From IMG/VR virus record IMGVR_UViG_3300030508_000015, positions 87,190 to 151,189 of that record: DNA of 64,000 bases; one strand, written 5' to 3'. Source of the DNA: a virus. Positions 8,396 through 63,323 of this stretch are shown here, in pieces (the stretch's first letter is position 1; each line of letters opens with the position of its first letter). The notes beneath the pieces were generated by a model. That model did not search any database and had not been told where the DNA came from. It saw only the letters and a list, made by a program, of their open reading frames with translations. A program made the position numbers and the translations under genes.

Positions 8396-9082
8396 TTAGT
8401 ATTCAGGGATTAATACTTGTTTATCTAGAATTTCTTTGTGACTCATCCATTTAAGTTTTCCGTGCTTATCCTTCATAATCCTATATAAATTACAATCTGC
8501 TCCTTTAGCTACATTTTGATTTATATAATTAGTAACACCTATCTTCGTGTTTTCTGCAATATGAACGGGATCATAAAAGCCAAAACTAGAAGGACTTACA
8601 TTTCTAGATTCATCTGGTATTGCTGACTCTGATACAATTCCTCCCTGCCCCATCTTAGTTACTTTATGACTATTATCAAAGTGTTCTAATGGATTAATAC
8701 CTTCAACGTTATTAGCTAAAGGATTTCCTACAATAACCGACCTGACTTGCTGAGAGAAGAAACCAGGAGTAAGCCAGTTAAGATTCTTTTTCATTTGCAT
8801 TTTATAAGCTGCTTTTTGTTGTATTTTACCTGCATCCTTATTTATATGGTCGGCTATAAAATCCTCTAGTCCCATAAATTTGGAGAATTTAAGGTTATCT
8901 CGATCATCACCTTCAACCTCACCTTTATTAATCTTAATTAATTTTGCTGAACTAGCTAATAAGACTTGGGGACTTATTTTATCCTCATCTACTCCAATAT
9001 TATTCTTAACAATATCTTTATCTAGGGAGGTATGATTTAACCATTCCTTAAATTTAGTTAGTTTCTCGGTTCTAGTTAACAT
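8396..9082 (-). CDS. RNA polymerase beta-subunit-like fragment (Rpb2 domain 3 / fork region)
   Basis: This 228-residue minus-strand protein resembles the middle of multisubunit RNA polymerase beta. Residues about 125-195 contain N-P-L, then S-H-K-V-T-K-M-G-Q-G-G-I, then S-R-N-V-S-P-S-S-F-G-F, then K-I-G-V-T-N-Y-I. They line up in order with bacterial NPL...THKRR..ALGPGGL...RDVHP.HYGR...NIGL. Upstream, D-D-R-D-N-L and G-L-E-D-F-I-A-D-H-I also match divergent phage polymerases. The bacterial E-T-P-E-G is replaced by H-I-A-E-N. The gene ends soon after this domain, so it is a fragment of about one sixth of beta. It could be one piece of a split phage polymerase or a remnant. No other polymerase part is in the window. 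Confidence 0.6.
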   Translation of the reverse strand: MLTRTEKLTKFKEWLNHTSLDKDIVKNNIGVDEDKISPQVLLASSAKLIKINKGEVEGDDRDNLKFSKFMGLEDFIADHINKDAGKIQQKAAYKMQMKKNLNWLTPGFFSQQVRSVIVGNPLANNVEGINPLEHFDNSHKVTKMGQGGIVSESAIPDESRNVSPSSFGFYDPVHIAENTKIGVTNYINQNVAKGADCNLYRIMKDKHGKLKWMSHKEILDKQVLIPEY

Positions 9083-9083
9083 A

Positions 9084-9824
9084 TTAATTCTGTACTTGTA
9101 TAAGGTCAGCTACTAATTGATCCATATTAAACCCGGAAGGAGATAAACCAGTATTATTAATCCAATCCTGACTAATCAATGCATAAGCTTCCTCAGTCCT
9201 ATTAGTCACCCAATCATAAGTAGCGGATTGTACAGCACCCCAAGTAATATATTCAAAAGTATTCTCTGAAAATGAAAATGATGGTATGGCATGTCCTCCA
9301 ATTATATTCCCAGTAGTATATTGCCAGGTAGTTATGCCACTTTCCACAGCATTCATATCATCCTCAGTCAAATCAACCCCAGTATAAACCCCTCCAAATA
9401 ACCAGATAGCTATTTTTAGATGAAGTATATTCTTAGGATTAACACTTACGAATGCCCCTATCTTATGATTAGCAATACCTGTAGTTTGCCAGTACTTCAA
9501 TACCTCAAGTTCAACTGCTCCATTATCAGTAGCAGGATTATTAGGAGTATAGCCAGTAATTGCTTCATAGGCTCTTAATACATCATCATTAGTAGGTGTG
9601 ATGAGTGTAGAACTATTTGCAGTCCAGTTCATAATATAGTGAGCGGCAGCAGCACAAGTACAAATTCCTAGACTATCATTGAGAAACATCTGATAAGGGT
9701 TATTACCTATTTTAGCCCACCAATTAATAGAAGTTGGTGGTATTAGTGTAGGAGCTAAATACTTTTCTAGTTTAAGCGCCCTCTTATCAAATACAGCCTT
9801 ATTACGTCCTAATTTATAGTTCAT
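9084..9824 (-). CDS. Papain-like (C1-type) cysteine peptidase-fold protein
   Basis: The 246-residue protein has S-L-G-I-C-T-C-A-A-A-A at about residues 51-61, like the Q-G-x-C-x-A active-site helix of papain-like proteins, then G-G-H-A-I at about residue 177, and T-W-G-A-V-Q shortly after, where papain family members have N-S-W-G. The Cys and His are present but the Asn position is Thr, so catalysis is uncertain. Similar C1-like proteins occur in phage tail regions. The gene is immediately upstream, in the minus direction, of the polymerase-like fragment (one base apart) and is likely co-transcribed with it, divergently from the nucleotide operon. Substrate and role are unknown. Confidence 0.55.
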   Translation of the reverse strand: MNYKLGRNKAVFDKRALKLEKYLAPTLIPPTSINWWAKIGNNPYQMFLNDSLGICTCAAAAHYIMNWTANSSTLITPTNDDVLRAYEAITGYTPNNPATDNGAVELEVLKYWQTTGIANHKIGAFVSVNPKNILHLKIAIWLFGGVYTGVDLTEDDMNAVESGITTWQYTTGNIIGGHAIPSFSFSENTFEYITWGAVQSATYDWVTNRTEEAYALISQDWINNTGLSPSGFNMDQLVADLIQVQN

Positions 9825-9869
9825 AGTATTATTCTACTTTCTTGGAACTACTTAAACAATAAAATAAAG

Positions 9870-9898
9870 TTGACAACATTACCGTACATTTCTAAAGT
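9870..9898 (+). promoter_or_regulatory. Candidate sigma70-like promoter for the nucleotide operon
   Basis: A perfect TTGACA at 9870-9875 is followed by a 17-bp spacer and a weak -10, TAAAGT, at 9893-9898. It lies in the 80-bp divergent gap before the gene at 9905. The -10 matches only four of six consensus bases and the predicted RNA would start very close to the start codon. Confidence 0.35.
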
Positions 9899-9904
9899 AG
9901 TGTT

Positions 9905-10108
9905 ATGCAATTAGAGATAAATTACGAACCAGAAGATGAGGAAGTCACTATTATAGTTGATAATGCTGACGTTCTTAAAGCTACATTAGGGGAAAAGAAT
10001 TTACTAGTGCTTAATAAGAAGTTTAAAGATATAAAAGATGATAACGAGAAACTTTATACTGCACTTAGAAGTATTACCCTGTCTTTAATGGAGCTTACTG
10101 AGGTTTAA
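9905..10108 (+). CDS. Small acidic protein of unknown function
   Basis: This 67-residue protein is acidic at the N-terminus (E-P-E-D-E-E-V) and has a probable helical second half. No motif is recognised. It is the first forward gene after the minus-strand pair and is followed by a hairpin/T-run, so it may be transcribed as a single-gene unit. Coding support is codon use like the neighbours and a clean start behind a candidate promoter. Confidence 0.55.
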   Translation: MQLEINYEPEDEEVTIIVDNADVLKATLGEKNLLVLNKKFKDIKDDNEKLYTALRSITLSLMELTEV

Positions 10109-24532: not shown

Positions 24533-26515
24533 ATGCAAAAGATATCGTTTGAAGATAAATTTAAGAACTATCTTCGTGCTAGTTATCCCATCCTTTGGAT
24601 CAGGACTCACGAAGAAAGCAGAGTAACCAGAAGTATCATTAATGCGGTTGCTGATGCTAAACAAATAACCATATATAGTTGGGATTGTAAGAGATTGTTG
24701 GAGAAATATGTTAAAAATGCTGACAAGTCTGTTATTAACAACTTTGAATCCGTTAAAGGTGGTGTTGGCACAAGTACAGGACCTAATGCAGGACCCAAGG
24801 ATTATGGCCTGACTAATGCAATTGAGAGCATTAAAGCGTTGCCTAATGGAACTGGACGGAATATTATCATTATGAAGGATTTCCATCCTTATATTGAAGC
24901 TCCTGGGCAAGTCCGGCCTATTCGTAATGCCATTGATGATTTGAAGTGTAAGGGAAATATGTTGGTGTTTATATCTCCTATCATTAAGATTCCTGTAGAG
25001 TTGGAGAAGGAGATTCAAATTCTGGATTTCCACCTCCCTGATGAAAAGCAATTAGAGGGTATTTTAATGTCCGTAGTAGCCATCTTTAATAAAAAGAATG
25101 AGGAGAAGGGTGAGCCGGAAAAGAAGATTGATCCTGACATTAAGCAAGCTACTATTGAAGCTCTGAAAGGACTTACATTTAGTGAAGCTCATGATGCAGT
25201 AAGTTTGGCTATTATTGAGAATCATGAATTTAATGCTTCTTTCGTCCTTAGTGTATTTAACGAGAAGGTTAAACAAGTCAAGCGTGGTGGTCAGTTACAA
25301 TATCAACAATCTGATATTACTTATGAGCATATTGGTGGTTTGGATGGCTTGAAGAAATGGACAGAAGTGAGATCTAAAGCTTATAGTCAGAAAGCTAGAG
25401 ATTATCATTTGCCGTACCCTAAGGGAGTTCTACTGGCTGGTGAATTAAATTGACGAATACCTTTGGTTATGGTAAATAATATATTCGTTAGTTTTTATGC
25501 CGGTCGCTCTAGTAATGGAGCGAAGCTTACAGCGGAAAAAATCGGGGACCCTATTAAAAATGAGGGAATCCGACCTGAAGGTTCTATAGATTATTCTATT
25601 TAACCAGGGGCAGAGCATAGTGGATGTAATAAGCCACCAAGAGACCGCTGCAACCTAGAAATAGGTTGAATATATATGCCGAACTATGTGCGTAAGATAC
25701 TAAGCCATAGAAGTAGAGGATAAAAAGCCTTTACGATAACAAAATTGATACCAGGAACAGGGAAAACAGCAATTGCCAAAGCCACTGCAAATCAGTTTGG
25801 CTTTCCGTTGTTTCAGTTAGATATAGGAAGTTTATTTGGTAAGTATGTGGGTGAAAGTGAGGAAAACTTCCGTAGAGTAATTGAAACAGTTGATAGTATT
25901 GGACGGTGTGTGTTGTTCATCGACGAAATTGAAAAAGGTCTGAATCGTAATGCAGTATCTGGTGCTGGTGACTCAGGTACATCTTCTCGTACGTTTGCTA
26001 CACTATTAAGTTGGTTGAGTGATCACAAATCTCCCGTATTTGTTATAGCCACCACTAATGATCATACTAAACTCCCACCCGAGTTTATTCGTAAAGGCAG
26101 GTTTGATGATGTATTCTGGGTCGACTTGCCTACACTAGCTGAGAGAATATCGATCTTTGATGTGTTAATTAAGCGGTATTTTCGAGAGCCAGCCAAGTAT
26201 AACCTGGCTAAACTTGCTGAGAAGACTGAAGGTTTTACTGGTGCTGAAATTGAAGAAGTTATCAAAGGTGCCATGTTTAACCGGTTTGATAAAGATGGTA
26301 AGGAATTCACTAACACTGACTTGCTGGATGAGATTAACAGTACTCAACCAATCAGCGTTACGTCCAAAGTTGATATTGATGCTATGCGGGAGAAGGCGGT
26401 GGGCAAGCTCAGAGTTGCTAGCGTTAGTGGTTCAGTGAAAATGTTTACCATGGATGAAACTAAGCGAAGAACTGAAGGTAACGGTGAAGACAGAGCGTTA
26501 GATCCGTTTAACTAA
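24533..26515 (+). CDS. Ycf46-like AAA+ ATPase, split by a group I intron (exons 24533-25441 and 25748-26515)
   Basis: Joining the two frames gives 558 residues with one intact AAA+ domain. The N-terminal region (R-A-S-Y-P-I-L-W-I-R-T-H-E-E-S-R, residues about 11-26) is typical of Ycf46-like proteins. G-G-L-D-G-L-K-K-W and P-K-G-V-L-L-A-G end exon 1 at Gly303. Exon 2 resumes in frame with I-P-G-T-G-K-T, completing the Walker A motif. Walker B is C-V-L-F-I-D-E-I-E (Asp362, Glu363), followed by sensor-1 A-T-T-N-D and an R-x-G-R-F-D arginine-finger region. Neighbours DUF1257 and DUF2997 often accompany this ATPase. Without splicing, exon 1 would stop after three more codons and no ATPase could form. 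Confidence 0.88.
25442..25747 (+). mobile_element. Group I self-splicing intron inside the AAA+ P-loop codons
   Basis: This 306-nt insertion has a group I core in the right order. P2 is a CGCTC/GAGCG hairpin (25505-25522). P3 is CAGCGG (25530-25535) with CCGCTG (25645-25650). P4 is TCGG/CCGA, P5 is CCCT/AGGG, and P6 is GGTT/AACC. P7 is CATAGT (25616-25621) with ACTATG (25683-25688). P8 is CAACCTA-GAAA-TAGGTTG (25651-25668), capped by a GNRA loop. The upstream exon ends in U and the intron ends in G, as expected, and the joined exons stay in frame. There is no endonuclease ORF inside. Exact splice points could shift by a base or so. Confidence 0.85.
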
Positions 26516-45637: not shown

Positions 45638-46372
45638 ATGTTAAGTACTTTAAAACCATCTAATAATAGCAAAGTTAGATTTATTCCGAATCATAATAAT
45701 ACGTTTGGATTGACACACGGTTCACCTAAGAATGGTGGGACATGTATTGGTGCAACTTGTGGTCCTGGCGGTTGTTTGGATATAAGAGATGGGCTTAAAC
45801 GCCAGACTTGTTATGTTTCCAAGATTGTGCAGATTTATAAGAATGTGGGAAAAGTTTTAACAAGTAATTCTGAATTATTGGTGGGAAAAACCCAACCAGA
45901 AATGACAGAGTTACTTATTAGAACTTTTCAAACATTCAAAGATAACAATAAGAAGGAGAATTGGTATTATAGACTTCATTGGGCCGGCGATTTCTTTTCC
46001 GAAGACTATGCCAGGGCTATGGTCGAAGCTTGTAGTACATTCCCAGAAATAAGATTCTGGGTATATACTAGAAGTTTTGACTTTGTACCTATTTTAGTTG
46101 AGGCTTCAAATTTAGCAGTATATCTTAGTTTAGACCCGGTAAATAAGGATAAAGGGTTAAAGATATATGAGGAATTGAGATATAGATATAATAATGTAGG
46201 GGTGGCTTTTATGGGACCTAGAGATGTTACCAATATTAAGTTTATTAATTGCCCGGAAACTCACGGGAAGATAGAAAATACTAAAGATAAAGGAGCTTGT
46301 GCCAAATGTAAGTTGTGTTTCACTTATACAGATAAGATACAACTAAGAAATATAGCATTTAGCTTACACTAA
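45638..46372 (+). CDS. GP88-type phage protein
   Basis: The 244-residue protein has G-G-T-C-I-G-A-T-C-G-P-G-G-C near residue 32, then C-Y-V, R-L-H-W-A-G-D-F-F-S at about residue 111, F-W-V-Y-T-R-S-F at about 143, and C-A-K-C-K-L-C-F near the end. This Cys/Arg pattern matches the GP88 family of mycobacteriophages and other phages, of unknown activity. The Cys clusters suggest a metal or Fe-S site. It is preceded by a terminator, so it probably has its own promoter. Confidence 0.7.
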   Translation: MLSTLKPSNNSKVRFIPNHNNTFGLTHGSPKNGGTCIGATCGPGGCLDIRDGLKRQTCYVSKIVQIYKNVGKVLTSNSELLVGKTQPEMTELLIRTFQTFKDNNKKENWYYRLHWAGDFFSEDYARAMVEACSTFPEIRFWVYTRSFDFVPILVEASNLAVYLSLDPVNKDKGLKIYEELRYRYNNVGVAFMGPRDVTNIKFINCPETHGKIENTKDKGACAKCKLCFTYTDKIQLRNIAFSLH

Positions 46373-47443: not shown

Positions 47444-47746
47444 ATGAACAAGACTGATACTAAACCTATTATCGTTAAAATCAAGATTCTGGACCAAACT
47501 GGACACACTACTTTGGAACAGGCTATTGATGATGCAATCAAGACCGCTTTTACCTATAATTTTACAAATGGTAAGAACATTAATGTACGTGGTGAAAACG
47601 GAGTAGTTCCTTTTGAACTATTCGCCAAGGATATTAATGATACGGAAGGATTGCTCAGTGATACGATTAGACTCCATAAAGCTCTCACTCAATTCGAAGA
47701 CCCTTTAATTTTCATTACTGGTGCTTTGGCTGGTGGAGCGAACTAA
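47444..47746 (+). CDS. Candidate ubiquitin-like (MoaD/ThiS-like) modifier ending GG-AN
   Basis: This 100-residue protein has a strand-turn-strand start (I-I-V-K-I-K-I-L-D, then G-H-T-T-L-E), a helix (Q-A-I-D-D-A-I-K-T-A-F) and a C-terminal strand with P-L-I-F-I-T-G-A-L-A-G-G-A-N. The last segment resembles the P-x-V/L-x-G-G terminus of MoaD, ThiS and prokaryotic ubiquitin-like proteins. Gly97-Gly98 is followed by Ala-Asn, which the nearby JAMM peptidase (50135) could remove, leaving the glycine an E1 (50907) would activate. The fold call is by pattern; the GG end and the two partner enzymes support it. Confidence 0.5.
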   Translation: MNKTDTKPIIVKIKILDQTGHTTLEQAIDDAIKTAFTYNFTNGKNINVRGENGVVPFELFAKDINDTEGLLSDTIRLHKALTQFEDPLIFITGALAGGAN

Positions 47747-47759
47747 ACGCGGAACCCTC

Positions 47760-47790
47760 GGAGCAAATCTAATACTAGTAGGTTTGCTCC
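47760..47790 (+). terminator. Hairpin between Ubl candidate and next gene
   Basis: GGAGCAAA (47760-47767) pairs with TTTGCTCC (47783-47790), with a further CTA/TAG inside the loop. There is no T-run, so this may be an attenuator or RNA-processing site setting the ratio of the small protein to the downstream genes. Confidence 0.5.
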
Positions 47791-47805
47791 ACTTAATTTA
47801 AACCT

Positions 47806-49791
47806 ATGTCTTTTATCTCACCTGAAAACTTTCAATATTACGCTAATTACTTTGCTCAACTAACAAAAGCCAAATTAGACTATGAAATAAATAGATCTGA
47901 AAAATATGTTAGTGATGATCAAGGGAATTCAGCATATCAAGTAACCTTTCATCCAATTTTTAAGAATATTACGACTTTAGACCAATTAGCCTCAGTTTGG
48001 TCAGCTGCTCCCAACCCTATACCTGTAGATGCTATTAGAGGTGGGGTTATAACTGATGAGTTGCTTAGAAATCCCAACTGTTGCATAGTTAGTGGAAGTG
48101 TGTATAAACAAAACATTACTTCAATTAAGTTTTATGCTAATAGTGTGTTTGATTCAACTAATTGTAATGTAAAAATTTACTTAATAAACAATACTGTCCT
48201 TGAAAGAGTGGTAAATGCTAGGACTATCAGAGTATGTAGTTTGGGCAGTCTTTATAACAATGGTAAGATTGTTTTCTGTGGTGATGAAAACACTCCCTGG
48301 TTTAATTATATAGATAAAGGGCATATCATAATATTTGCTTCTGCTGGAGAACAGATGGAGGGTAATAGCCGTACATTTGTCACAGATGCTATAACTTTGG
48401 ATATGAACTATATAATTGCAGCAGCTTCCATCTATCCTCCCGCCATAGATGATATATTACAGAACAAAGCATTTATTCCTAGTAAGGATAGTAGACTAGC
48501 TTTGTTAAGGGTGGAGAAAGCTATTCCAGCCAGATATCGAGAAGCTTATTTAGCTAGAAAAGCCAAGATACAGGAAGACTTTAGCAAAAATACCACTAAT
48601 GTAATGATTGGTAAATTGACTAGGAAAGAAAGTCCGTTTATTGAGCTTAACGGTATCAAGATAACTGCTACCAAAGCTGATTATATAGCTGGTCATGTAA
48701 CAATAGAAGCCAATAATCTAGCTGAAGTTGTCTTTGCTAAACTAAATCCCAATGAAACGGAATGGGATATATTCACATTGATAAACATATATACTGATTG
48801 GGTTAATGAACAATTCAGAAACTTGCCACTTAATGCTGATGGGTCTGGCTGTTCAGCAGCCAAATCGTTCTCATTTAAAATCAATGATATTCCGTTAAAG
48901 GTGAGTTGTTTTACTGAGAATACTAGGAGGGCGGTAAATGATCACTTAATCAATGTAGATGAGCTGAGTGCTGTTCTTAAAAGAGCTAGTTGTTATCAAG
49001 CAGTTGAAGGCGAGGATAATGTAAAGAACTTTGACAAGTTTATTTCTAATGTATCCAGGCATTCATTGAAGATTCGTGATATCTGGTCTAATGGTATGCC
49101 AGTTAAAACTGTTTACTTAGAGAGTGACAGGAATAGTTACGGTAAACAGGCTACTATGAAGCATCCTAAGCTAAGGTTTATTCATAAAGATAAGAAGGGT
49201 TTCTATCTAATAGTGAATCAATATGATAGTAAGAATAAGTCTAAGATCATTTCGACTAATGAGTATAGAATAGGTAAATTTGCAGCATTCATTAAAAGGG
49301 TGGAACAGGCGAACAGAAGTAATTATATGAATTATGTTCATGATTATAGTCGAAATTCTGAAGGTTACTATCTACCACTATCAGGAACTAACAAATGTGC
49401 AACTGAACTATTAATTATTTTAGCTGAATTTGCTGGTGATATTACTGAAGAGGATAAGAAGGCATTGATAGGTTCCATTAATTATGAGCTGAGTGAAGCT
49501 GAAAAGAAATCTGAAGAATTGTTGAAAGAAGCTTGTCAACTAACTAACTCTAAAGAAGGTACTAGAGACGGCAAGGTTGGCTATATAGTACCAGGAAAGA
49601 TGAGAACTTATTTCGTTGAAGCTGAAGGTACCCATAAAGTTTACGATAATGACCCCAAAGCTACTAATCCTTATTTCTGTGTAGTTAATAAAGGAGATAT
49701 GGGTGTAGGTAGAGATGCATTAGTAGCTCGTATATTCGCGCTACATAATGACCAGATGATGGCTAAACAAATTCACACATTACAAAGATAA
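47806..49791 (+). CDS. Large unknown protein in the ubiquitin-like module
   Basis: This 661-residue soluble protein is not recognised. It has a mixed alpha/beta N-terminal half (F-H-P-I-F-K-N, W-F-N-Y-I-D-K-G-H-I-I-I-F) and a basic middle (R-Y-R-E-A-Y-L-A-R-K-A-K-I). A C-terminal region reads K-L-R-F-I-H-K-D-K-K-G-F-Y and R-T-Y-F-V-E-A-E-G-T-H-K-V-Y. It lies between the GG-ending small protein and the JAMM/E1 genes and could be a target, ligase or scaffold for them. That is inference from position; no E2-type active-site pattern is evident. Confidence 0.55.
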   Translation: MSFISPENFQYYANYFAQLTKAKLDYEINRSEKYVSDDQGNSAYQVTFHPIFKNITTLDQLASVWSAAPNPIPVDAIRGGVITDELLRNPNCCIVSGSVYKQNITSIKFYANSVFDSTNCNVKIYLINNTVLERVVNARTIRVCSLGSLYNNGKIVFCGDENTPWFNYIDKGHIIIFASAGEQMEGNSRTFVTDAITLDMNYIIAAASIYPPAIDDILQNKAFIPSKDSRLALLRVEKAIPARYREAYLARKAKIQEDFSKNTTNVMIGKLTRKESPFIELNGIKITATKADYIAGHVTIEANNLAEVVFAKLNPNETEWDIFTLINIYTDWVNEQFRNLPLNADGSGCSAAKSFSFKINDIPLKVSCFTENTRRAVNDHLINVDELSAVLKRASCYQAVEGEDNVKNFDKFISNVSRHSLKIRDIWSNGMPVKTVYLESDRNSYGKQATMKHPKLRFIHKDKKGFYLIVNQYDSKNKSKIISTNEYRIGKFAAFIKRVEQANRSNYMNYVHDYSRNSEGYYLPLSGTNKCATELLIILAEFAGDITEEDKKALIGSINYELSEAEKKSEELLKEACQLTNSKEGTRDGKVGYIVPGKMRTYFVEAEGTHKVYDNDPKATNPYFCVVNKGDMGVGRDALVARIFALHNDQMMAKQIHTLQR

Positions 49792-49797
49792 AAAAAT

Positions 49798-50196
49798 ATG
49801 ACTCGTGAAGATTTAACCTTCGCGACCTGTTATCAACTAGCACAACTTATTTCTGAAGACTGGGAAAACCAGCCTTCAGAAGTAAAGCATGCTATTTATC
49901 TATTAAAACCAATAGATGAACCAGGTGAATTATTTTGGGGAGTTCCTCCAATAGTAAATCCACTTAAGTTAGCAGCGTCAGAAAGGGAACCAGACTCCAT
50001 AAGATTGAATAGAAAACTATATGAACTAGAAGTAGTTTCAAAGTGTTTTAAACTAATAATTGAACATTCTGATCAATGGCAAACACAAAATTCTGACGAC
50101 CTAAAAAAGGAAATCATTTCAAGAGTAAAAGAATATGAAGAAGAAATCATTAGCATCTCTAAACCTGTGCCTTTTACATGCCATATCCAAATATGA
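49798..50196 (+). CDS. Small helical acidic protein overlapping the JAMM gene
   Basis: The 132-residue acidic, mostly helical protein starts six bases after the large unknown gene and overlaps the JAMM gene by 62 bases. Such a long overlap is unusual here and suggests coupled expression or a start-site error in one of them. No function is recognised. Confidence 0.5.
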   Translation: MTREDLTFATCYQLAQLISEDWENQPSEVKHAIYLLKPIDEPGELFWGVPPIVNPLKLAASEREPDSIRLNRKLYELEVVSKCFKLIIEHSDQWQTQNSDDLKKEIISRVKEYEEEIISISKPVPFTCHIQI

Positions 50197-50632
50197 TGAT
50201 GATTTATTAGAAGAACAAGGTGGATTTATATTAAAAGAAGTTGGTGTGGATAACTATGAATTTGTACCAGTTACTAATGCCTTAACCGGTACGCATGCCG
50301 CTAAAGGTTTGTATATAGCTGAAACAAGTGAATTTAATAATAAGGTTGCAGCTAGAACATTTGATGATACCTGGACTGTCTTTGCTAGTTATCATACTCA
50401 TCCTTTAGGTATGCGAGCATTACCTAGCAATACTGATGTCTCAAAATTGTTCACTAATTTCCCGGTTAACTTTATCTATGCTCCTGATAGAGAGTTGAAT
50501 AGATTTGATTATAACCCAAACTATGTTAAAGATGGTTCTGATAGTAAGTGGATTTTTACTAATGTAAGTAACTTTAATGGCTTTAAAGGAGATAATAAAA
50601 TTGAAAAATGGATTGAATCTGAAAATTTATGA
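50135..50632 (+). CDS. JAMM/MPN metallopeptidase (JAB-like)
   Basis: This 165-residue protein has the JAMM zinc-peptidase signature: Glu27 in L-E-E-Q-G-G-F-I and H87-T-H89-P-L-G-M-R-A-L-P-S98-N-T-D101, matching E...H-x-H-x(7-10)-S-x(2)-D. In prokaryotic ubiquitin-like systems such enzymes trim the modifier or remove it from targets. The E1-like gene at 50907 and GG-ending protein at 47444 make that likely here. JAB domains also occur in phage tail assembly (as in lambda K), but no tail genes are near. Confidence 0.8.
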   Translation: MKKKSLASLNLCLLHAISKYDDDLLEEQGGFILKEVGVDNYEFVPVTNALTGTHAAKGLYIAETSEFNNKVAARTFDDTWTVFASYHTHPLGMRALPSNTDVSKLFTNFPVNFIYAPDRELNRFDYNPNYVKDGSDSKWIFTNVSNFNGFKGDNKIEKWIESENL

Positions 50633-50910
50633 ATACTGAAACTAATACTGAAACTAAACCTGAAACTAATACTGAAACTAAACCTGTTATAGAAATAGAT
50701 CCTTCATCAGTTGGGCATTTTTGTACTGTTAAATATGAGGATGAAGAAGAACCTGTTGATGGAATTATAGTTGAATATAATGATCCATGGTTTCTAGGTG
50801 ATCCAACCGTAGCAGTTTTTCTTTTAGATGCGTATATAATTGATGCCTCAGTTGAATTGGACCAGATAATTGAAATAAGAGGGCTTGTAAAATCTGATAA
50901 ATCTAAATGA
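50629..50910 (+). CDS. Acidic protein with Thr/Glu repeats, between JAMM and E1 genes
   Basis: The 93-residue protein begins with a low-complexity run of T-E-T-N and T-E-T-K-P units, then a compact beta-rich domain (F-C-T-V-K-Y, G-I-I-V-E-Y, V-A-V-F-L-L-D). It overlaps both neighbours by four bases. The folded part might be a small beta-barrel; a role as adaptor for the JAMM/E1 pair is speculative. Confidence 0.5.
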   Translation: MNTETNTETKPETNTETKPVIEIDPSSVGHFCTVKYEDEEEPVDGIIVEYNDPWFLGDPTVAVFLLDAYIIDASVELDQIIEIRGLVKSDKSK

Positions 50911-51518
50911 AATCTAAAGTAAAAATAGATAGGATAGGAATTGCAGGACAAGGCGGAATTGGGGCTTTTTTAACTAGATTCTTGTTTGATTATGGAGCTA
51001 AACGTAATCAATTTGACTTTAGTGGTTGTACAGTTGATACCTTCGATATCGATATCGTCGACGCCTCTAATCTTCTTCATCAAGATTTTACAGATGATGA
51101 TATAGGTAGATACAAAGCTGACATTGTGGCTGAAAAGTGCTTAAATCTTGTAAATCCTAATAAAAGGTTTATGGAGGTTAAGGATTTTGAGAACTATGAT
51201 GTTATTTTTAGCGCTGTAGATTCCATGTCCTTCAGGTCTTCACTCTACAAGTATGGATTCGATCACCCTAGTTTGATGTGGATTGATGGAAGATGTAGTT
51301 CTAGACAGGTAGGACTATATCACTCTAAATTGAGTAGAACGGTATTGGAAAAGGCAATTAATGATAGTAAAGAACGTACTGGATGTTTGTTGGAATATGA
51401 CAAGAAAAATAAAACTTCTCATGTAACTCCTCAAATAATCGCTGCTATGATGACTCAAACTTTTCTCAATTATATTAGAGATGAATTACAGCTTGACCCT
51501 GTTGTTCTTCTTTTGTAA
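50907..51518 (+). CDS. E1/ThiF/MoeB-like adenylating enzyme
   Basis: The 203-residue protein has the E1-like Rossmann start R-I-G-I-A-G-Q-G-G-I-G (residues 9-19), the second ATP-binding region D-I-D-I-V-D-A-S-N-L-L-H-Q (47-59) with the conserved Asp, Asn and Gln, Lys70 in G-R-Y-K-A-D, and S-A-V-D-S (102-106). Family members adenylate the C-terminal Gly of ubiquitin-like or sulfur-carrier proteins. Cys130 (D-G-R-C) is a candidate thioester residue. At about 200 residues it is a minimal adenylation domain, similar to the ThiF protein of PRTRC plasmid systems. Confidence 0.8.
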   Translation: MKSKVKIDRIGIAGQGGIGAFLTRFLFDYGAKRNQFDFSGCTVDTFDIDIVDASNLLHQDFTDDDIGRYKADIVAEKCLNLVNPNKRFMEVKDFENYDVIFSAVDSMSFRSSLYKYGFDHPSLMWIDGRCSSRQVGLYHSKLSRTVLEKAINDSKERTGCLLEYDKKNKTSHVTPQIIAAMMTQTFLNYIRDELQLDPVVLLL

Positions 51519-51625: not shown

Positions 51626-52615
51626 ATGGCAATTATTCGTGCAAGTAAAGCGTTTGAAGGTAGTGAACTTACCCAAAAATCTGCAACCTATATCAAGTCC
51701 AATACCCGGATAGTGGATTTTAAGAATAAGGAGAATGGTGTTTACCTATTCCTTTTAGGGGCATATAAAGAAGATAGTGCTGGTAATGGTGTGTGGTATA
51801 AACCGGTTAAGATTCGTGATAATTACGGGGTGAGCATGTATAAAAAGAAATTTGCTATCCAGCCTAACTGTCCAATTGAGTATTTTGCAAATAAAGTGCT
51901 GCAATTTGCTCCTGATATGGCTAAGAGTAGGGAGATCGAGGAAGATGGCAGAAAGAAATGGATTTATCCAGTTTGGGGTAGGACTGCTTGGAGAGTGCTG
52001 TATAATGCTGCTATCTTCAATGATTATGGCGCTGGTGTTCATGTTTTGGATTTGCCTCAATCTGGTGGTGCTAGTGTGATTGATGAACATGTGAGAGGGA
52101 AGCAGGCAGATGGTTCACCAAATCTAGATATTACTGACTATGAGCATGCTGTTCCAATCAATATCAAGCTAGACTTGAAAGTGAAGGGTCAACCGTGGAA
52201 AATAGCTATTCAGACGCAAAAGACTTATCCTTTGCCTCGTGAATTGGCAGATACTGATTATTTGTATAATCTGGATGAAGTTATTGCATATCCTGATAAA
52301 CAAGCGCTTATTGATGAGCTTAAGAGTCTTGTACCTGTGGATATATTTAGAAAGGGCTTGGAAGGTTATTCAGATGGTCTCACTCCTGAATTTACATCTA
52401 CTCCTGAAACTCCAGAAGTAGATGTTAGGTCAGAAGTACCTCCAGTATATGAGAATCCGGTAGCTTCCATACCAAGGTCTAACACAGCTAAAACTGTGGC
52501 ACCAACTGTAAGTATTCCAAAAGCTAATACTGAGCCTAAAGCTTCAGAACCAGTAGCTAGTAATAGTGATGTTTTGAAACGGGCGCAGGAATTCTTGAAG
52601 AATAAAGTTAAATAA
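51626..52615 (+). CDS. Probable single-stranded DNA-binding protein
   Basis: This 329-residue protein has a beta-rich body with many aromatic and basic residues (K-P-V-K-I-R-D-N-Y-G, W-I-Y-P-V-W-G-R-T-A-W) and a Pro/Ser/Thr/Glu-rich linker from about residue 255. A short charged helix ends it (L-K-R-A-Q-E-F-L-K-N-K-V-K). That architecture and its place before RecA/UvsX suggest the phage SSB (T4 gp32 equivalent), as seen in other large phages. No OB-fold motif can be proven by eye. Confidence 0.6.
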   Translation: MAIIRASKAFEGSELTQKSATYIKSNTRIVDFKNKENGVYLFLLGAYKEDSAGNGVWYKPVKIRDNYGVSMYKKKFAIQPNCPIEYFANKVLQFAPDMAKSREIEEDGRKKWIYPVWGRTAWRVLYNAAIFNDYGAGVHVLDLPQSGGASVIDEHVRGKQADGSPNLDITDYEHAVPINIKLDLKVKGQPWKIAIQTQKTYPLPRELADTDYLYNLDEVIAYPDKQALIDELKSLVPVDIFRKGLEGYSDGLTPEFTSTPETPEVDVRSEVPPVYENPVASIPRSNTAKTVAPTVSIPKANTEPKASEPVASNSDVLKRAQEFLKNKVK

Positions 52616-52623
52616 GTAACTCT

Positions 52624-52655
52624 GGGAGCACTAATATTAATTAGTGCTCCCTTTT
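52624..52655 (+). terminator. Rho-independent terminator
   Basis: A 12-bp perfect stem, GGGAGCACTAAT (52624-52635) with ATTAGTGCTCCC (52640-52651), and a four-base loop, is followed by TTTT. It overlaps the space before the RecA start at 52659. Confidence 0.85.
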
Positions 52656-52658
52656 ATT

Positions 52659-53855
52659 ATGCCTACAAATAACGACGAAATATTCCAGAAATTGCTGGAA
52701 GCTACAGAACATCAGTTTAAGAAGAAGTTTAAAGACACCAATGCCAAGTTTATTCTAGCTAGTGAAGAAAAGCCAGCTATTGGATTAATAGTAGATAATC
52801 CGGCTCTAGAATATATATTAGATAGAAGGTTTTTAGCTTACGGCAGATTTTATCTAGTATATGGTAAAAAGAGTTCTTCCAAGACTTCCTTATTCTATGA
52901 AATTGCCAAGATATTTCAAAAGAATAATGGCAAAGTAATCTGGCTTGAGACTGAAAATGCCATTGACTTGGATTACGCTAAGAGCCAGGGTGTGGATTTG
53001 GATAGTGTAATGTTAATTCATCCTCAGACATTGGAAGAAGCATTAAGTATAGCTGAATCATTTATTAGGAATTTAAGTAAGCTAGATCCGGATGGACAGA
53101 TGCCTATTTTGATTTGTTTAGATAGTATTGCTGGTAGTACAACTGAATATGAGCAAGACACCTCTAATAATGTAACTGATACAATGCCAGGAGCACATGC
53201 TAGACTGCTAAGTAGGTTTTATCGAGAGATGGAACATCCTTTAGCAAATGAGCGTTGTGTGTTTCTGGCATTGAACCAGTTAAAGAAAGCGGTAGGTGGA
53301 TTTACTCCGTTTGGTGGTGAAGCTGAGAGTATGATGGGTGGAGAAGCACCTAGATTTAGCAGTACATATCAAATTAAAATGGAAAAGATTAAGGATTTGA
53401 CTGCTGAAGGAAAAGATGATGGTCCTGAGCGGAAATTTGGCTCCATTCATCAAATAACCTGTACTAGAAATAAGTTAGGGAGGGAAGGCAATACCCAAAG
53501 AATTAGATTCGATCTATATATTGAGGGTGGTATTGATTGGTATTCTCCATTAGTATCTGAAACATTAGCTAAAAGTTATAAAGACTTGGTTACTGCTAAA
53601 GGTCCTAGGTACTCATGGAACATACCTGGAATGACTTATATTGATAAAGATGGTACGGAAAAACCTCTCAGTACTGAAGAAAGTTATTATGATAGGGATT
53701 TAGGGTATATGATAGCCCATAGTACACAAGCTAAGGAGGCTATTAGAACTGCTTTTGGAATCAGACCTCTTCCACCTCAAGCAGTAGTGGAAGAAGTTGA
53801 AGCTGAAAGACTTACTAAACGTAAGAAGAAGAAAGATGAAGAGAAATCATTATGA
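52659..53855 (+). CDS. RecA/UvsX-like recombinase
   Basis: The 398-residue protein has V-Y-G-K-K-S-S-S-K-T-S (Walker A, about residues 65-75), I-W-L-E-T-E-N-A (catalytic Glu region), I-L-I-C-L-D-S-I-A-G (Walker B, about 148-157), and L-A-L-N-Q-L (about 204-209, the RecA L2-flanking strand). It forms filaments on single-stranded DNA for strand exchange. The P-loop is an unusual G-K-K-S-S-S-K-T. I use the ATG at 52659, since an upstream TTG at 52644 falls in the terminator stem. A Lys-rich tail ends it, overlapping the next gene by four bases. Confidence 0.85.
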   Translation: MPTNNDEIFQKLLEATEHQFKKKFKDTNAKFILASEEKPAIGLIVDNPALEYILDRRFLAYGRFYLVYGKKSSSKTSLFYEIAKIFQKNNGKVIWLETENAIDLDYAKSQGVDLDSVMLIHPQTLEEALSIAESFIRNLSKLDPDGQMPILICLDSIAGSTTEYEQDTSNNVTDTMPGAHARLLSRFYREMEHPLANERCVFLALNQLKKAVGGFTPFGGEAESMMGGEAPRFSSTYQIKMEKIKDLTAEGKDDGPERKFGSIHQITCTRNKLGREGNTQRIRFDLYIEGGIDWYSPLVSETLAKSYKDLVTAKGPRYSWNIPGMTYIDKDGTEKPLSTEESYYDRDLGYMIAHSTQAKEAIRTAFGIRPLPPQAVVEEVEAERLTKRKKKKDEEKSL

Positions 53856-58880: not shown

Positions 58881-59146
58881 ATGAATATATAGTAGGAGAT
58901 GAAGTTTCTGTAACTCTTAATTCTGGTAATCGAGTTAAAGCAAAGATTATAAGTATTGATAATGACGAGCTTGCACTAAAGTTTGTAGAGTATACAGAGC
59001 TTGTAAACATTGATGCAAGCGGTGGTTCAAGCGGTGGTTCAGGCGGTTGGCCTACTATTCATAGACACATAAATGAGGTAATCTCTTTAGTATCTAAAAC
59101 TAGAAAAGAAAATCCTTTTGATAGGAAACTGGAGTTTGATTTATGA
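58877..59146 (+). CDS. SH3-like small protein with shared C-terminal tag
   Basis: The 89-residue protein begins Y-I-V-G-D-E-V-S-V-T-L and N-R-V-K-A-K-I-I-S-I-D, resembling a short SH3/KOW-like barrel. It has a Gly/Ser linker G-G-S-S-G-G-S-G-G-W, then I-H-R-H-I-N. It ends F-D-R-K-L-E-F-D-L. It overlaps both flanking genes by four bases, so three tagged genes are translated in sequence. Confidence 0.62.
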   Translation: MNEYIVGDEVSVTLNSGNRVKAKIISIDNDELALKFVEYTELVNIDASGGSSGGSGGWPTIHRHINEVISLVSKTRKENPFDRKLEFDL

Positions 59147-59610
59147 AAATAACAAAAATAGCTAATAGATGGTATGACGAAAACAATAATAGTTGGTCTA
59201 CAGAAGAACTAGCTACTCTATACTCACCTACCCTAACTAATTGTAGATGGTGTAGAGATTGTAGAGATTGTAATTATTGTTGTCTTTGTAGTGATTGTAG
59301 TAATTGTAGTAATTGTAGTGGTTGTAGTGGTTGTAGTGGTTGTAGTAATTGTTATAATTGTAATTGGTGTAGTAGTTGTGGTAGTTGTAATAGTTGTTAT
59401 AAATGTACTGATTGTAATGATTGTAGAGGTTGTAGTAATTGTAGTAGTTGTTATAGTTGTAGTTATTGTGGTAATTGTAAAGATTGTTTTCACTGCTATT
59501 TATGTAAAATTTGTAGTAACCTTAGATTTTATGAAAAAGGATCACAATTAAATACTATTATAAGAGTGGAGGCTAATGCTTTTGACAGAAAATTAGAAAT
59601 AGACTTATGA
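59143..59610 (+). CDS. Cysteine-triplet repeat protein, copy 3
   Basis: The 155-residue paralogue has N-R-W-Y-D-E-N-N-N-S-W near the start, then S-P-T-L-T-N, then about 31 Cys-x-x triplets (one contains an extra Cys, C-C-L). The C-terminal module ends F-D-R-K-L-E-I-D-L. Its non-Cys positions are mainly Ser, Asn, Asp, Gly and Tyr. It overlaps both neighbours by four bases. It has more repeats than copies 1 and 2, so repeat number varies freely while the ends are kept. Confidence 0.8.
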   Translation: MKITKIANRWYDENNNSWSTEELATLYSPTLTNCRWCRDCRDCNYCCLCSDCSNCSNCSGCSGCSGCSNCYNCNWCSSCGSCNSCYKCTDCNDCRGCSNCSSCYSCSYCGNCKDCFHCYLCKICSNLRFYEKGSQLNTIIRVEANAFDRKLEIDL

Positions 59611-62798: not shown

Positions 62799-63323
62799 AT
62801 GACAATAACTAAAAGAGACGATAGATGGTATGATGAACGAGGTAATAGTTGGAGAACAGAAGAATCAGCTACTACATACTCACTTACCCTAATTAATTGT
62901 AGAGATTGTAGTAATTGTAATAATTGTATAGGTTGTAGTAGTTGTAGTAGTTGTAGTGGTTGTAATAGTTGTAGTGGTTGTAGTACTTGTTATAATTGTA
63001 GTGGTTGTAGTGCTTGTAATATTTTTAATTATTGTCATGATTGCAGTAGTTGTTTTAATTGTTATAGTTGTACTGATTGTAGTAATTGTAGTGATTGTAA
63101 TTATTGTAGTCGTTGTAGTGATTGTAGTAGTTGCAGTAATTGTATTGATTGTAATATTTGTAGTGATTGTAGTTATTGTAGTAGTTGTAGTAGTTGTACT
63201 AACTGTAATCATTGTGAATTGTGTGGAAAATTAGTTGATCAAAAGTTTCAAGAAAAGATTAAAGACCCATTAATTAGGACAGAGTTTAATGTAGAAAACA
63301 GGTTACTAGAACCAGACTTATAA
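62799..63323 (+). CDS. Cysteine-triplet repeat protein, copy 4 (longest)
   Basis: The 174-residue paralogue starts K-R-D-D-R-W-Y-D-E-R-G-N-S-W, has about 36 Cys-x-x triplets with one imperfect triplet (F-N-Y after C-N-I), and ends E-N-R-L-L-E-P-D-L. It follows tRNA-Asp by 10 bases. The N-terminal motif and the tag are kept although sequence between repeat and tag differs from other copies. It is the longest of the four and its codons for Cys are mostly TGT. Confidence 0.8.
   Translation: MTITKRDDRWYDERGNSWRTEESATTYSLTLINCRDCSNCNNCIGCSSCSSCSGCNSCSGCSTCYNCSGCSACNIFNYCHDCSSCFNCYSCTDCSNCSDCNYCSRCSDCSSCSNCIDCNICSDCSYCSSCSSCTNCNHCELCGKLVDQKFQEKIKDPLIRTEFNVENRLLEPDL

Follow-up and report, generated by a model that had tools for sequence, protein, structure and literature searches.

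A conserved phage gene set encoding a predicted ubiquitin-like modifier, a JAMM peptidase and an E1-like enzyme beside recombination genes, as a candidate protein-modification system

In a 64,000-nucleotide stretch of viral DNA (positions 87,190 to 151,189 of the IMG/VR virus record IMGVR_UViG_3300030508_000015, which has 151,189 bases; this whole stretch is hereafter called the window), we analyzed a gene cluster at positions 47444–51518 that an earlier note, made from the letters alone, had singled out as a candidate ubiquitin-like conjugation module. Four of its genes, encoding a small ubiquitin-like protein (Ubl), a 661-residue protein (P661), a JAMM/JAB-type metallopeptidase (JAMM) and an adenylating enzyme of the ThiF type (E1), occur without exception, next to recombination genes, in a single clade of large uncultured phages. 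Probably, with a rough probability of 60%, the module is encoded by the phage to modify proteins in a ubiquitin-like manner, in connection with DNA replication and recombination. Six open reading frames (ORFs) were called in the module, and all those named in the earlier note were located on the plus strand; the genes are collinear, with overlaps among those for P132, JAMM, P93 and E1. The observation of the module was confirmed, and its interpretation as a ubiquitin-like one is supported, with protein tagging itself as what we infer from it. The features of the module are as follows.

47444–47746, plus strand: Ubl, predicted ubiquitin-like beta-grasp modifier precursor of 100 residues, ending in LAGGAN (AlphaFold2 model and structural neighbours)
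47732–47737, plus strand: codons of Gly97-Gly98 (Gly-Gly at these alignment columns in 29/29 distinct sequences)
47738–47743, plus strand: two-residue Ala-Asn tail, which JAMM would be expected to remove
47760–47790, plus strand: terminator-like hairpin of 12 pairs in the Ubl/P661 spacer (counterpart of 8–18 pairs in 29/29 loci)
47806–49791, plus strand: P661, 661 residues, core partner and candidate E2/E3-like transfer factor (24/24 loci compared)
48991–48993, plus strand: codon of the invariant Cys396 of P661 (31/31 sequences covering the position)
49441–49785, plus strand: C-terminal domain of P661, residues 546–660, modelled as a long helix, four strands, Cys625 and a helix
49678–49680, plus strand: P661 codon for Cys625, invariant in 32/32 and a candidate thioester cysteine, which the model places between its fourth strand and the following helix
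49798–50196, plus strand: P132, accessory (family in 3/24 loci)
50135–50632, plus strand: JAMM/JAB metallopeptidase, 165 residues (Prok-JAB; motif residues invariant in 30/30)
50393–50437, plus strand: JAMM motif H87-T-H89 ... S98-x-x-D101 (in 29/29 Ubl-bearing loci)
50629–50910, plus strand: P93, small accessory protein (in near-identical contigs only, among eight loci searched)
50907–51518, plus strand: E1/ThiF-like adenylating enzyme, 203 residues (PF00899, E 7e-10)
51078–51080, plus strand: codon of E1 His58, at the place of the N-L-x-R-Q Arg of UBA3 and PRTRC ThiF (His in 32/32)
51384–51386, plus strand: codon of E1 Cys160, the likely catalytic cysteine (31/31)

The gene set was traced through its relatives by scans of IMG/VR with E1 and P661, which gave 7, 34 and 7 loci, and later with larger alignments, which gave 37 and 9, the loci of the later scans being mostly on the same contigs as those of the earlier ones. 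All of these loci are metagenomic contigs, several of the first 42 (L001–L042) being the same or near-identical; because such contigs inflate raw counts, residue conservation is given here for distinct sequences, namely 29 Ubl, 30 JAMM, 31–32 E1 and 31–32 P661. Profile searches in L001–L042 counted 37 Ubl, 39 P661, 41 JAMM and 43 E1, the last figure including the two halves of one interrupted E1, and the order was always Ubl-P661-JAMM-E1, with a gene absent only where the stretch ended. A separate RecA-anchored scan found 35 loci, and all four genes were present in 28 of the 28 that had sufficient upstream contig (L067/L068, L075/L098 and L085/L086 being near-duplicates), the contig ending too early in the remaining seven (L018, L051, L069, L070, L083, L089 and L097). 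In recurring loci the order extended to Ubl-P661-JAMM-E1-SSB-RecA, SSB standing for a putative single-stranded DNA-binding protein. We also compared 24 loci over the span from GP88 to RecA, the window included and near-identical repeats excluded, and there the Ubl, P661, JAMM, E1 and SSB-like families were found in 24/24, the next commonest family occurring in 15/24. Conservation of the gene set in related phages, which the earlier note had raised, thus held in both comparisons, and this constancy in every sufficiently long locus makes the set a fixed trait of one phage clade. The flanking genes in the window are the following.

45638–46372, plus strand: GP88 (PF17338) gene, the usual upstream flank (E 9.9e-32)
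51626–52615, plus strand: SSB-like gene, downstream flank, the SSB label being that of the earlier note (24/24 loci)
52644–53855, plus strand: RecA/UvsX-like recombinase gene, downstream flank (tblastn matches to phage UvsX/RecA genes)

The SSB-like gene gave no family match in the profile searches made, its label resting on the earlier note. GP88 was found in 24/24 loci by choice, because those loci were cut at GP88, and it was set aside as a module member; in L035 and L042/L049 the four genes were present and a GP88 match was missing from the 6–9 kb upstream. The GP88 gene, where it lies upstream of the module as it usually does, carries several conserved cysteines, judged by eye. P132 and P93 are outside the conserved set and had no Pfam match, and with P661 they make up the three proteins of unknown kind reported in the earlier note, none of which has a family above the Pfam cut-off. 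In two relatives a gene of about 190 residues lies between P661 and JAMM (L005:8552-9133 and L006:8638-9198) that is absent from the window, and at the same gap L034 has a 209-residue protein that by eye looks like a DnaQ-type nuclease. Among 20 pairwise comparisons the ratio of nonsynonymous to synonymous divergence (dN/dS) was low, at 0.03–0.15, in 13, synonymous divergence being saturated in the other seven, including all four between the window and L005.

An E1 alignment scan of the genomes of 84,980 species gave no relative, the scan being pattern-based so that divergent copies may escape it; the window E1 (by tblastn) and P661 found nothing in 50,697 phage records, and E. coli genomes, searched at the DNA level, contained no relative. 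Against the same phage records, the E1 of a divergent relative matched only cr85_1, in two records, and the P661 of a relative matched none.

The Ubl has the sequence pattern of a processed modifier. Gly-Gly was conserved in 29/29 distinct Ubl proteins, as the earlier note would have it, and was followed by 0, 1, 2, 3, 4, 5, 8, 9, 75, 109 or 157 residues; the residue two positions ahead of it was Leu in 26 and Val in 3. A Gly-Gly kept beside a hypervariable tail is the pattern that we would expect of a modifier matured by cleavage. The long tails of L007 and L011 resemble each other by eye, which suggests that some Ubls are probably made as fusions. An AlphaFold2 model from the 29-sequence alignment (predicted local distance difference test, pLDDT, 84.2; predicted template-modelling score, pTM, 0.71) had the topology bb-a-bb-a-b, with strands at residues 10–17, 20–27, 45–50, 53–57 and 88–92 and helices at 28–42 and 67–82, and with the Gly-Gly in its low-confidence, flexible end. 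The best Foldseek matches in the PDB were PB1, UBX, Ras-binding and ubiquitin-like domains, the best of them at E 6.7e-03, with no match at E ≤ 0.001. Comparison with VIA gave a best Z of 6.2, with ISG15, SUMO and archaeal ubiquitin among the rows and also the bacterial Ubl 8tyz_B (Z 4.6), where by calibration a Z below 8 may reflect just a common arrangement; the fold call for that reason draws jointly on topology, neighbours and context. The top neighbours (PB1, UBX, DIX, ISG15 and SUMO) we take to be mostly of the ubiquitin superfold. With these modest match scores, the small protein is predicted to be a ubiquitin-like beta-grasp, in agreement with what the earlier note had proposed before any structure prediction was run. 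Searches of Pfam, of PDB sequences with the Ubl family profile (best E 0.54) and of PRTRC by hhalign did not connect its sequence with any known Ubl, and the Ubl would on that basis be a family distinct from the known ones.

The identity of the peptidase was also clear. The window JAMM has H87-T-H89 ... S98-x-x-D101 together with E26/E27, the Glu, HxH, Ser and Asp being invariant in all 30 distinct proteins, so that the intact motif described in the earlier note extends to every Ubl-bearing locus. Prok-JAB matched the window protein at E 5e-05 and 23.6 bits, slightly below the cut-off of 25, and rose above it in two relatives (L042, 31.5 bits; L015, 33.7 bits); the best solved relatives of the family profile were bacterial MPN proteins (2.7e-04) and AfJAMM. 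Four Ubls, those of L020, L033, L035 and L042, end at the Gly-Gly, and the JAMM motif was intact in all four of these loci, which favours deconjugation over mere trimming and points to a peptidase that removes the modifier from its targets, unless the loss of the tail was recent.

For the enzyme called E1/ThiF-like in the earlier note, ThiF (PF00899) reached 38.9 bits against a cut-off of 28.1, and the Gly-rich loop (GxGGxG), the acceptor Asp, an Asn, a Lys, a second Asp and Cys160 were conserved in 30–32 of 31–32 sequences. The window protein is a bare ThiF domain of 203 residues in which Pfam detected no rhodanese domain. Its closest solved relatives were the NEDD8-activating UBA3 (8.4e-05) and the ThiF-type 9egb/9egc (5.4e-04), and hhalign related the family at 99.6% to PRTRC ThiF and at 98.4% to the ThiF of crAss-like phages. 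Among NCBIfam models, thiamine ThiF scored 33.7 bits (cut-off 159), ahead of PRTRC ThiF TIGR03736 at 32.8 bits (cut-off 144.75; E 4.1e-08). In one relative the E1 gene is split in the ATP-site motif by about 1.1 kb (L034:8825-9923); the insert holds an ORF (9061–10032) that by eye resembles a LAGLIDADG homing endonuclease, and no Rfam intron family matched it.

The region between the Ubl and P661 genes bears on how the set may be expressed. A stem of 8–18 pairs lies directly 3' of the Ubl gene in 29/29 loci, its sequence varying between loci and its position being kept, and in 25 of the 29 the stem of the spacer was longer than in 30 base shuffles, a shuffle equalling it in L032, L033, L040 and L042. 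By our own count 21/29 hairpins had at least five T in the next eight bases; those that missed this criterion were the window, with a 12-pair stem and a weak T run, and L005, L006, L009, L011, L012, L025 and L027. The terminator scan as a whole was not above chance (4 against 3.6 expected), and the promoter scan (26 sites against 31.8 expected) was uninformative; what carries the argument is that the hairpin recurs at a single place in 29/29 loci. With a hairpin separating Ubl from P661 in every locus, the one simple transcription unit assumed in the earlier note is doubtful, even if the genes are collinear; the arrangement suggests that some transcripts end after the Ubl gene, which would put the modifier in excess over the enzymes. 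Shine-Dalgarno-like 4-mers were found upstream of 1/31 window genes checked, against a background of 8%, a near absence that presumably fits translation of the Bacteroidota type.

The argument for P661 as a transfer factor is mainly positional: apart from JAMM, no other gene lies constantly between those for Ubl and E1, and in crAss-like and Flavobacterium phages the corresponding position is taken by a gene, X, whose conserved HxH...C by eye looks E2-like. The window protein had Pfam matches at E 0.08 or worse only, with no family above cut-off, its family profile matched the PDB no better than E 0.16 (a flagellar hook protein), and a whole-fold search of the PDB gave nothing; in BFVD the fold matched the viral proteins A0A516MG04 (E 6.7e-07) and A0A516LSW3 (E 2.2e-06), both at probability 1.00. 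Its model (pLDDT 80.6, pTM 0.61) ends in a helix (548–580), four strands (583–587, 590–596, 601–605 and 612–614), a loop with Cys625 and a helix (636–647). In E2 enzymes the catalytic Cys comes after the fourth strand. The two cysteines of P661 are invariant wherever the alignment covers them, Cys396 in 31/31 and Cys625 in 32/32. VIA rows for the C-terminal domain included Mediator, kinetochore (4nfa, 5mu3), actin-capping and BRCA1-A (6gvw_C) proteins at Z 3–4.4, of which 4nfa, 5mu3 and 6gvw_C are presumably RWD/UBC-type chains (Z 3.0–3.3), with other folds scoring alike. The E2 fold is described, in passages of PMC1779556, as a four-strand meander with flanking helices, and the VIA rows are no more than a hint of such a fold. 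P661 is accordingly presented as the best candidate for an E2/E3 in the set, on weak evidence for an E2 fold. The earlier note had seen no separate E2; this stood to the extent that no recognisable E2 profile matched P661, P132 or P93 (PRTRC protein B, PF14460 or Prok-E2_D, included, these three proteins being the ones searched), and is qualified in that P661 itself may be the missing E2.

Among known systems, PRTRC, of plasmids and integrative and conjugative elements, we take to be operon type 6d of Iyer et al. 2006, with a Ubl, a helical protein, an E2-like protein, a JAB and an E1. The resemblance to PRTRC claimed in the earlier note held for the E1, which is homologous by TIGR03736 and by hhalign and aligned without gaps to PRTRC ThiF across a segment from the Gly loop to the acceptor Asp that UBA3 lacks; among the plasmid records listed for the E1 of a relative, 9/10 were annotated PRTRC ThiF. 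For the Ubl and P661 no relation to PRTRC-C, PRTRC-B or the gene between was detected; for the Ubl, hhalign to PRTRC-C gave 0.2%, against five sequences of which one (L065) was annotated PRTRC C and four were hypothetical proteins chosen by position. PRTRC moreover lies by ParB and the phage set by the SSB-like and RecA genes, and the phage E1 differs in an Arg-to-His change. Membership in PRTRC was rejected, with a relation detected for the E1 only and that E1 far below the family cut-off.

Sets in crAss-like phages (Crassvirales) and in Flavobacterium Fpv also share a homologous E1 (hidden Markov model E 6e-16 to 1e-12), and the order Ubl-like / X / JAB / ThiF in three records (L043, L107 and L108), near primase, uracil-DNA glycosylase or polymerase genes. 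Their Ubl-like and E2-like labels were given by eye, and the JAB label comes from a 'metalloprotease domain' note and a sub-threshold Prok-JAB match in one record and from alignment in the others. In contrast to the E1, their Ubl, X and JAB had no significant match to the window family profiles, and X has a conserved HxH...C that is absent from P661. By tblastn the crAss-like ThiF matched 82/50,697 phage records, the match spanning 80% or more of the query in 76, with annotations such as thiamine biosynthesis protein, ThiF and E1 enzyme family; a phage E1 beside a JAB-like gene has, by these matches, already been deposited.

Archaeal SAMP and Urm1-like systems need a Ubl, an E1 and a JAMM only, with no E2, and differ from the phage-borne set, which has P661 as a fourth constant partner. 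BilABCD likewise has clustered Ubl, JAMM and E1, the JAMM freeing the C-terminal Gly according to passages of PMC11354881; it differs in its tandem Ubl and its E2, where the phage Ubl is a single domain of 100 residues and the set has no recognisable E2 and lies beside recombination genes. In the TAPI-TAPK genes of Lambda and T1, as passages of PMC1779556 have it, a JAB peptidase goes together with a phage Ubl whose end contains Gly. The tail set (JAB-NlpC/P60) has no E1, whereas the window JAMM has 165 residues with Prok-JAB only, and its neighbours are GP88, SSB-like and RecA rather than tail genes, bearing out the distinction from tail-assembly JAB genes drawn in the earlier note. The logic that favours conjugation in the phage set was likewise predicted for bacterial JAB-E1 operons by Iyer et al. 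2006 (in passages of PMC1779556). On the tests made, the module appears to resemble PRTRC, Bil and the crAss-type sets in its working and to belong to none of them, and in the open-licence PMC literature we found no phage-encoded Ubl-E1-JAMM set of this kind. In an Alicyclobacillus plasmid with dnaN and a KilAC antirepressor (L066:2379-5708), small proteins, a Mov34/MPN protein and a ThiF stand in a row that by eye also includes a PRTRC-B-like protein; this may be a further set of the Ubl type, carried by a phage-like replicon.

We propose that the module works as follows. The Ubl precursor would be made, probably in excess over the enzymes, given the hairpin behind its gene. JAMM, with its intact residues, would cut behind the Gly-Gly and take off the variable tail. 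E1, with its conserved core, would then adenylate the Gly-Gly end and could carry the Ubl as a thioester on Cys160. P661 may receive it, perhaps on Cys625 in an E2-like C-terminal domain, and this is the weakest step; the target would be a lysine, either in a protein of replication or recombination or in P661. JAMM, retained in the four tail-less loci, would finally reverse the tag as an isopeptidase.

Several points weigh against this proposal. The conjugate, the thioester and the cleavage are all inferred, the functional steps being read from sequence. The hairpin could serve transcript processing or stability instead, and a JAMM beside a tail-less Ubl could be the leftover of a recent tail loss. 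The best family match of the Ubl was iREC, an inactive receiver domain (E 0.0013, 19.2 bits against a cut-off of 27); iREC (2/29 Ubls), Binary_toxB_3 (6/29, best 0.0064) and 28 more families were set aside as weak, scattered and sub-threshold. The core ATP-binding residues of E1, to which the earlier note had attached importance, are conserved, and the exception is the Arg of N-L-x-R-Q, which contacts ATP phosphates in MoeB and is replaced by His in every E1; it is present in UBA3 and 6/6 PRTRC ThiF, and also missing in three crAss-like/Fpv ThiF proteins read. P661 has no HPN-like motif, and none of its VIA rows reached Z 5. Pfam matches of 28 P661 C-terminal domains at E ≤ 10 included no E2 family, in a search where HMMER filters drop most weak matches, and hhalign of P661 gave 0.1–0.3% to PRTRC-B (0.1–0.2%) and crAss X and nothing to the gene next to PRTRC-B, these being weak tests with alignments of five, three and five sequences, respectively, and no positive control for E2s. 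DUF7737 matched the P661 C-terminal domains better than any E2, below threshold, in 24/28 (best 4.6e-05), the window's own domain having no match; on whole P661 proteins three matched below cut-off, the match reaching the invariant Cys region in relatives. A link of this domain to the cellular DUF7737 is possible on these sub-threshold scores. Among open-licence PMC papers we found none on DUF7737, though DUF4132 appears there, and E. coli YehI was rejected as a possible member, having no DUF7737 match and no similarity.

An alternative is that P661 is the single target, a dedicated acceptor or scaffold to which E1 transfers the Ubl directly, the modification switching its role in replication and JAMM reversing it. 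E2-independent transfer is known for archaeal SAMPs, and P661 is the only constant non-enzyme between Ubl and E1, large and multi-domain with no detected E2 homology. The invariant Cys396 and Cys625 are, however, unusual for a mere acceptor, and X, at the like position elsewhere, has its HxH...C pattern; we regard this alternative as somewhat unlikely.

Alternatively, the Ubl could be a sulfur carrier, trimmed by JAMM and activated by E1, its Gly-Gly becoming a thiocarboxylate for the thiolation of tRNA, nucleic acid or a small molecule, as in siderophore, CysO-type and ThiS/MoaD systems, with P661 as acceptor enzyme. Short tails behind Gly-Gly and JAMM trimming occur in sulfur systems too, in QbsE/QbsD and CysO/Mec+; the best NCBIfam match of the E1 is thiamine ThiF, if below cut-off, and the upstream GP88 gene has its several cysteines. 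Operon rows 4a-4e in passages of PMC1779556 also place Ubl, JAB and E1 alongside sulfur metabolism. Yet a Pfam scan covering 18 proteins of the window turned up neither a rhodanese nor a cysteine desulfurase nor a SirA, none of the families common to the 24 loci is one of these, the E1 of 203 residues has no rhodanese domain, unlike operons 4a-4c, and four Ubls need no trimming beside a JAMM that is still intact, all of which leaves a sulfur carrier unlikely. That the phage Ubl, E1 and JAMM serve as a counter-defence decoy, hindering host CBASS (cyclic oligonucleotide-based antiphage signalling system) Cap2 or Bil by competition or deconjugation, is highly improbable: hosts do have antiphage systems that contain E1, E2, Ubl or JAB components (PMC10097602, and passages of PMC11354881 for BilABCD), but a decoy would be expected in a patchy, accessory-region location, whereas the set keeps its place next to the SSB-like and RecA genes in every sufficiently long locus and is carried in full rather than as one inhibitor.

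Returning to the protein-modification system that we prefer, its strongest form would be that the phage clade runs reversible Ubl modification of its replication or recombination proteins, with P661 as a new E2/E3 class, a new Ubl family with hypervariable cleavable tails, and the whole as an obligatory core rather than a defence or accessory island; we put this forward tentatively, at odds of less than even. If true, the modification would be functionally comparable to that by SUMO and ubiquitin at eukaryotic replication forks. In bacteria, conjugation of the ubiquitin-like kind has been described chiefly in defence operons and plasmids of patchy occurrence. The phage set, by contrast, keeps a constant order and a fixed place next to the SSB-like and RecA genes, so that protein tagging becomes a candidate element of the basic replication cycle of these phages. 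Their clade also offers a natural experiment on Ubl processing, with one modifier family, tails of 0–157 residues and a JAMM retained where no trimming is needed, and P661 provides a new protein family and E2/E3 candidate, a parallel set existing in a culturable crAss-like phage. What is new is that the Ubl and P661 families are distinct, that the set is tied in a fixed way to the SSB-like gene and RecA, that the Ubl tails vary and that a hairpin follows the Ubl gene.

Two further observations were made elsewhere in the window. At 24533–26515 (plus strand), an AAA+ ATPase gene (AAA and AAA_lid_3) is split at its Walker A codons by about 290 bases, between ..GVLLAG and ..PGTGKT, with stops within the insert, which matched no Rfam intron family. 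At 59143–59610 and 62799–63323 lie genes for two similar proteins with long Cys-rich runs of C-x-x-C repeats.

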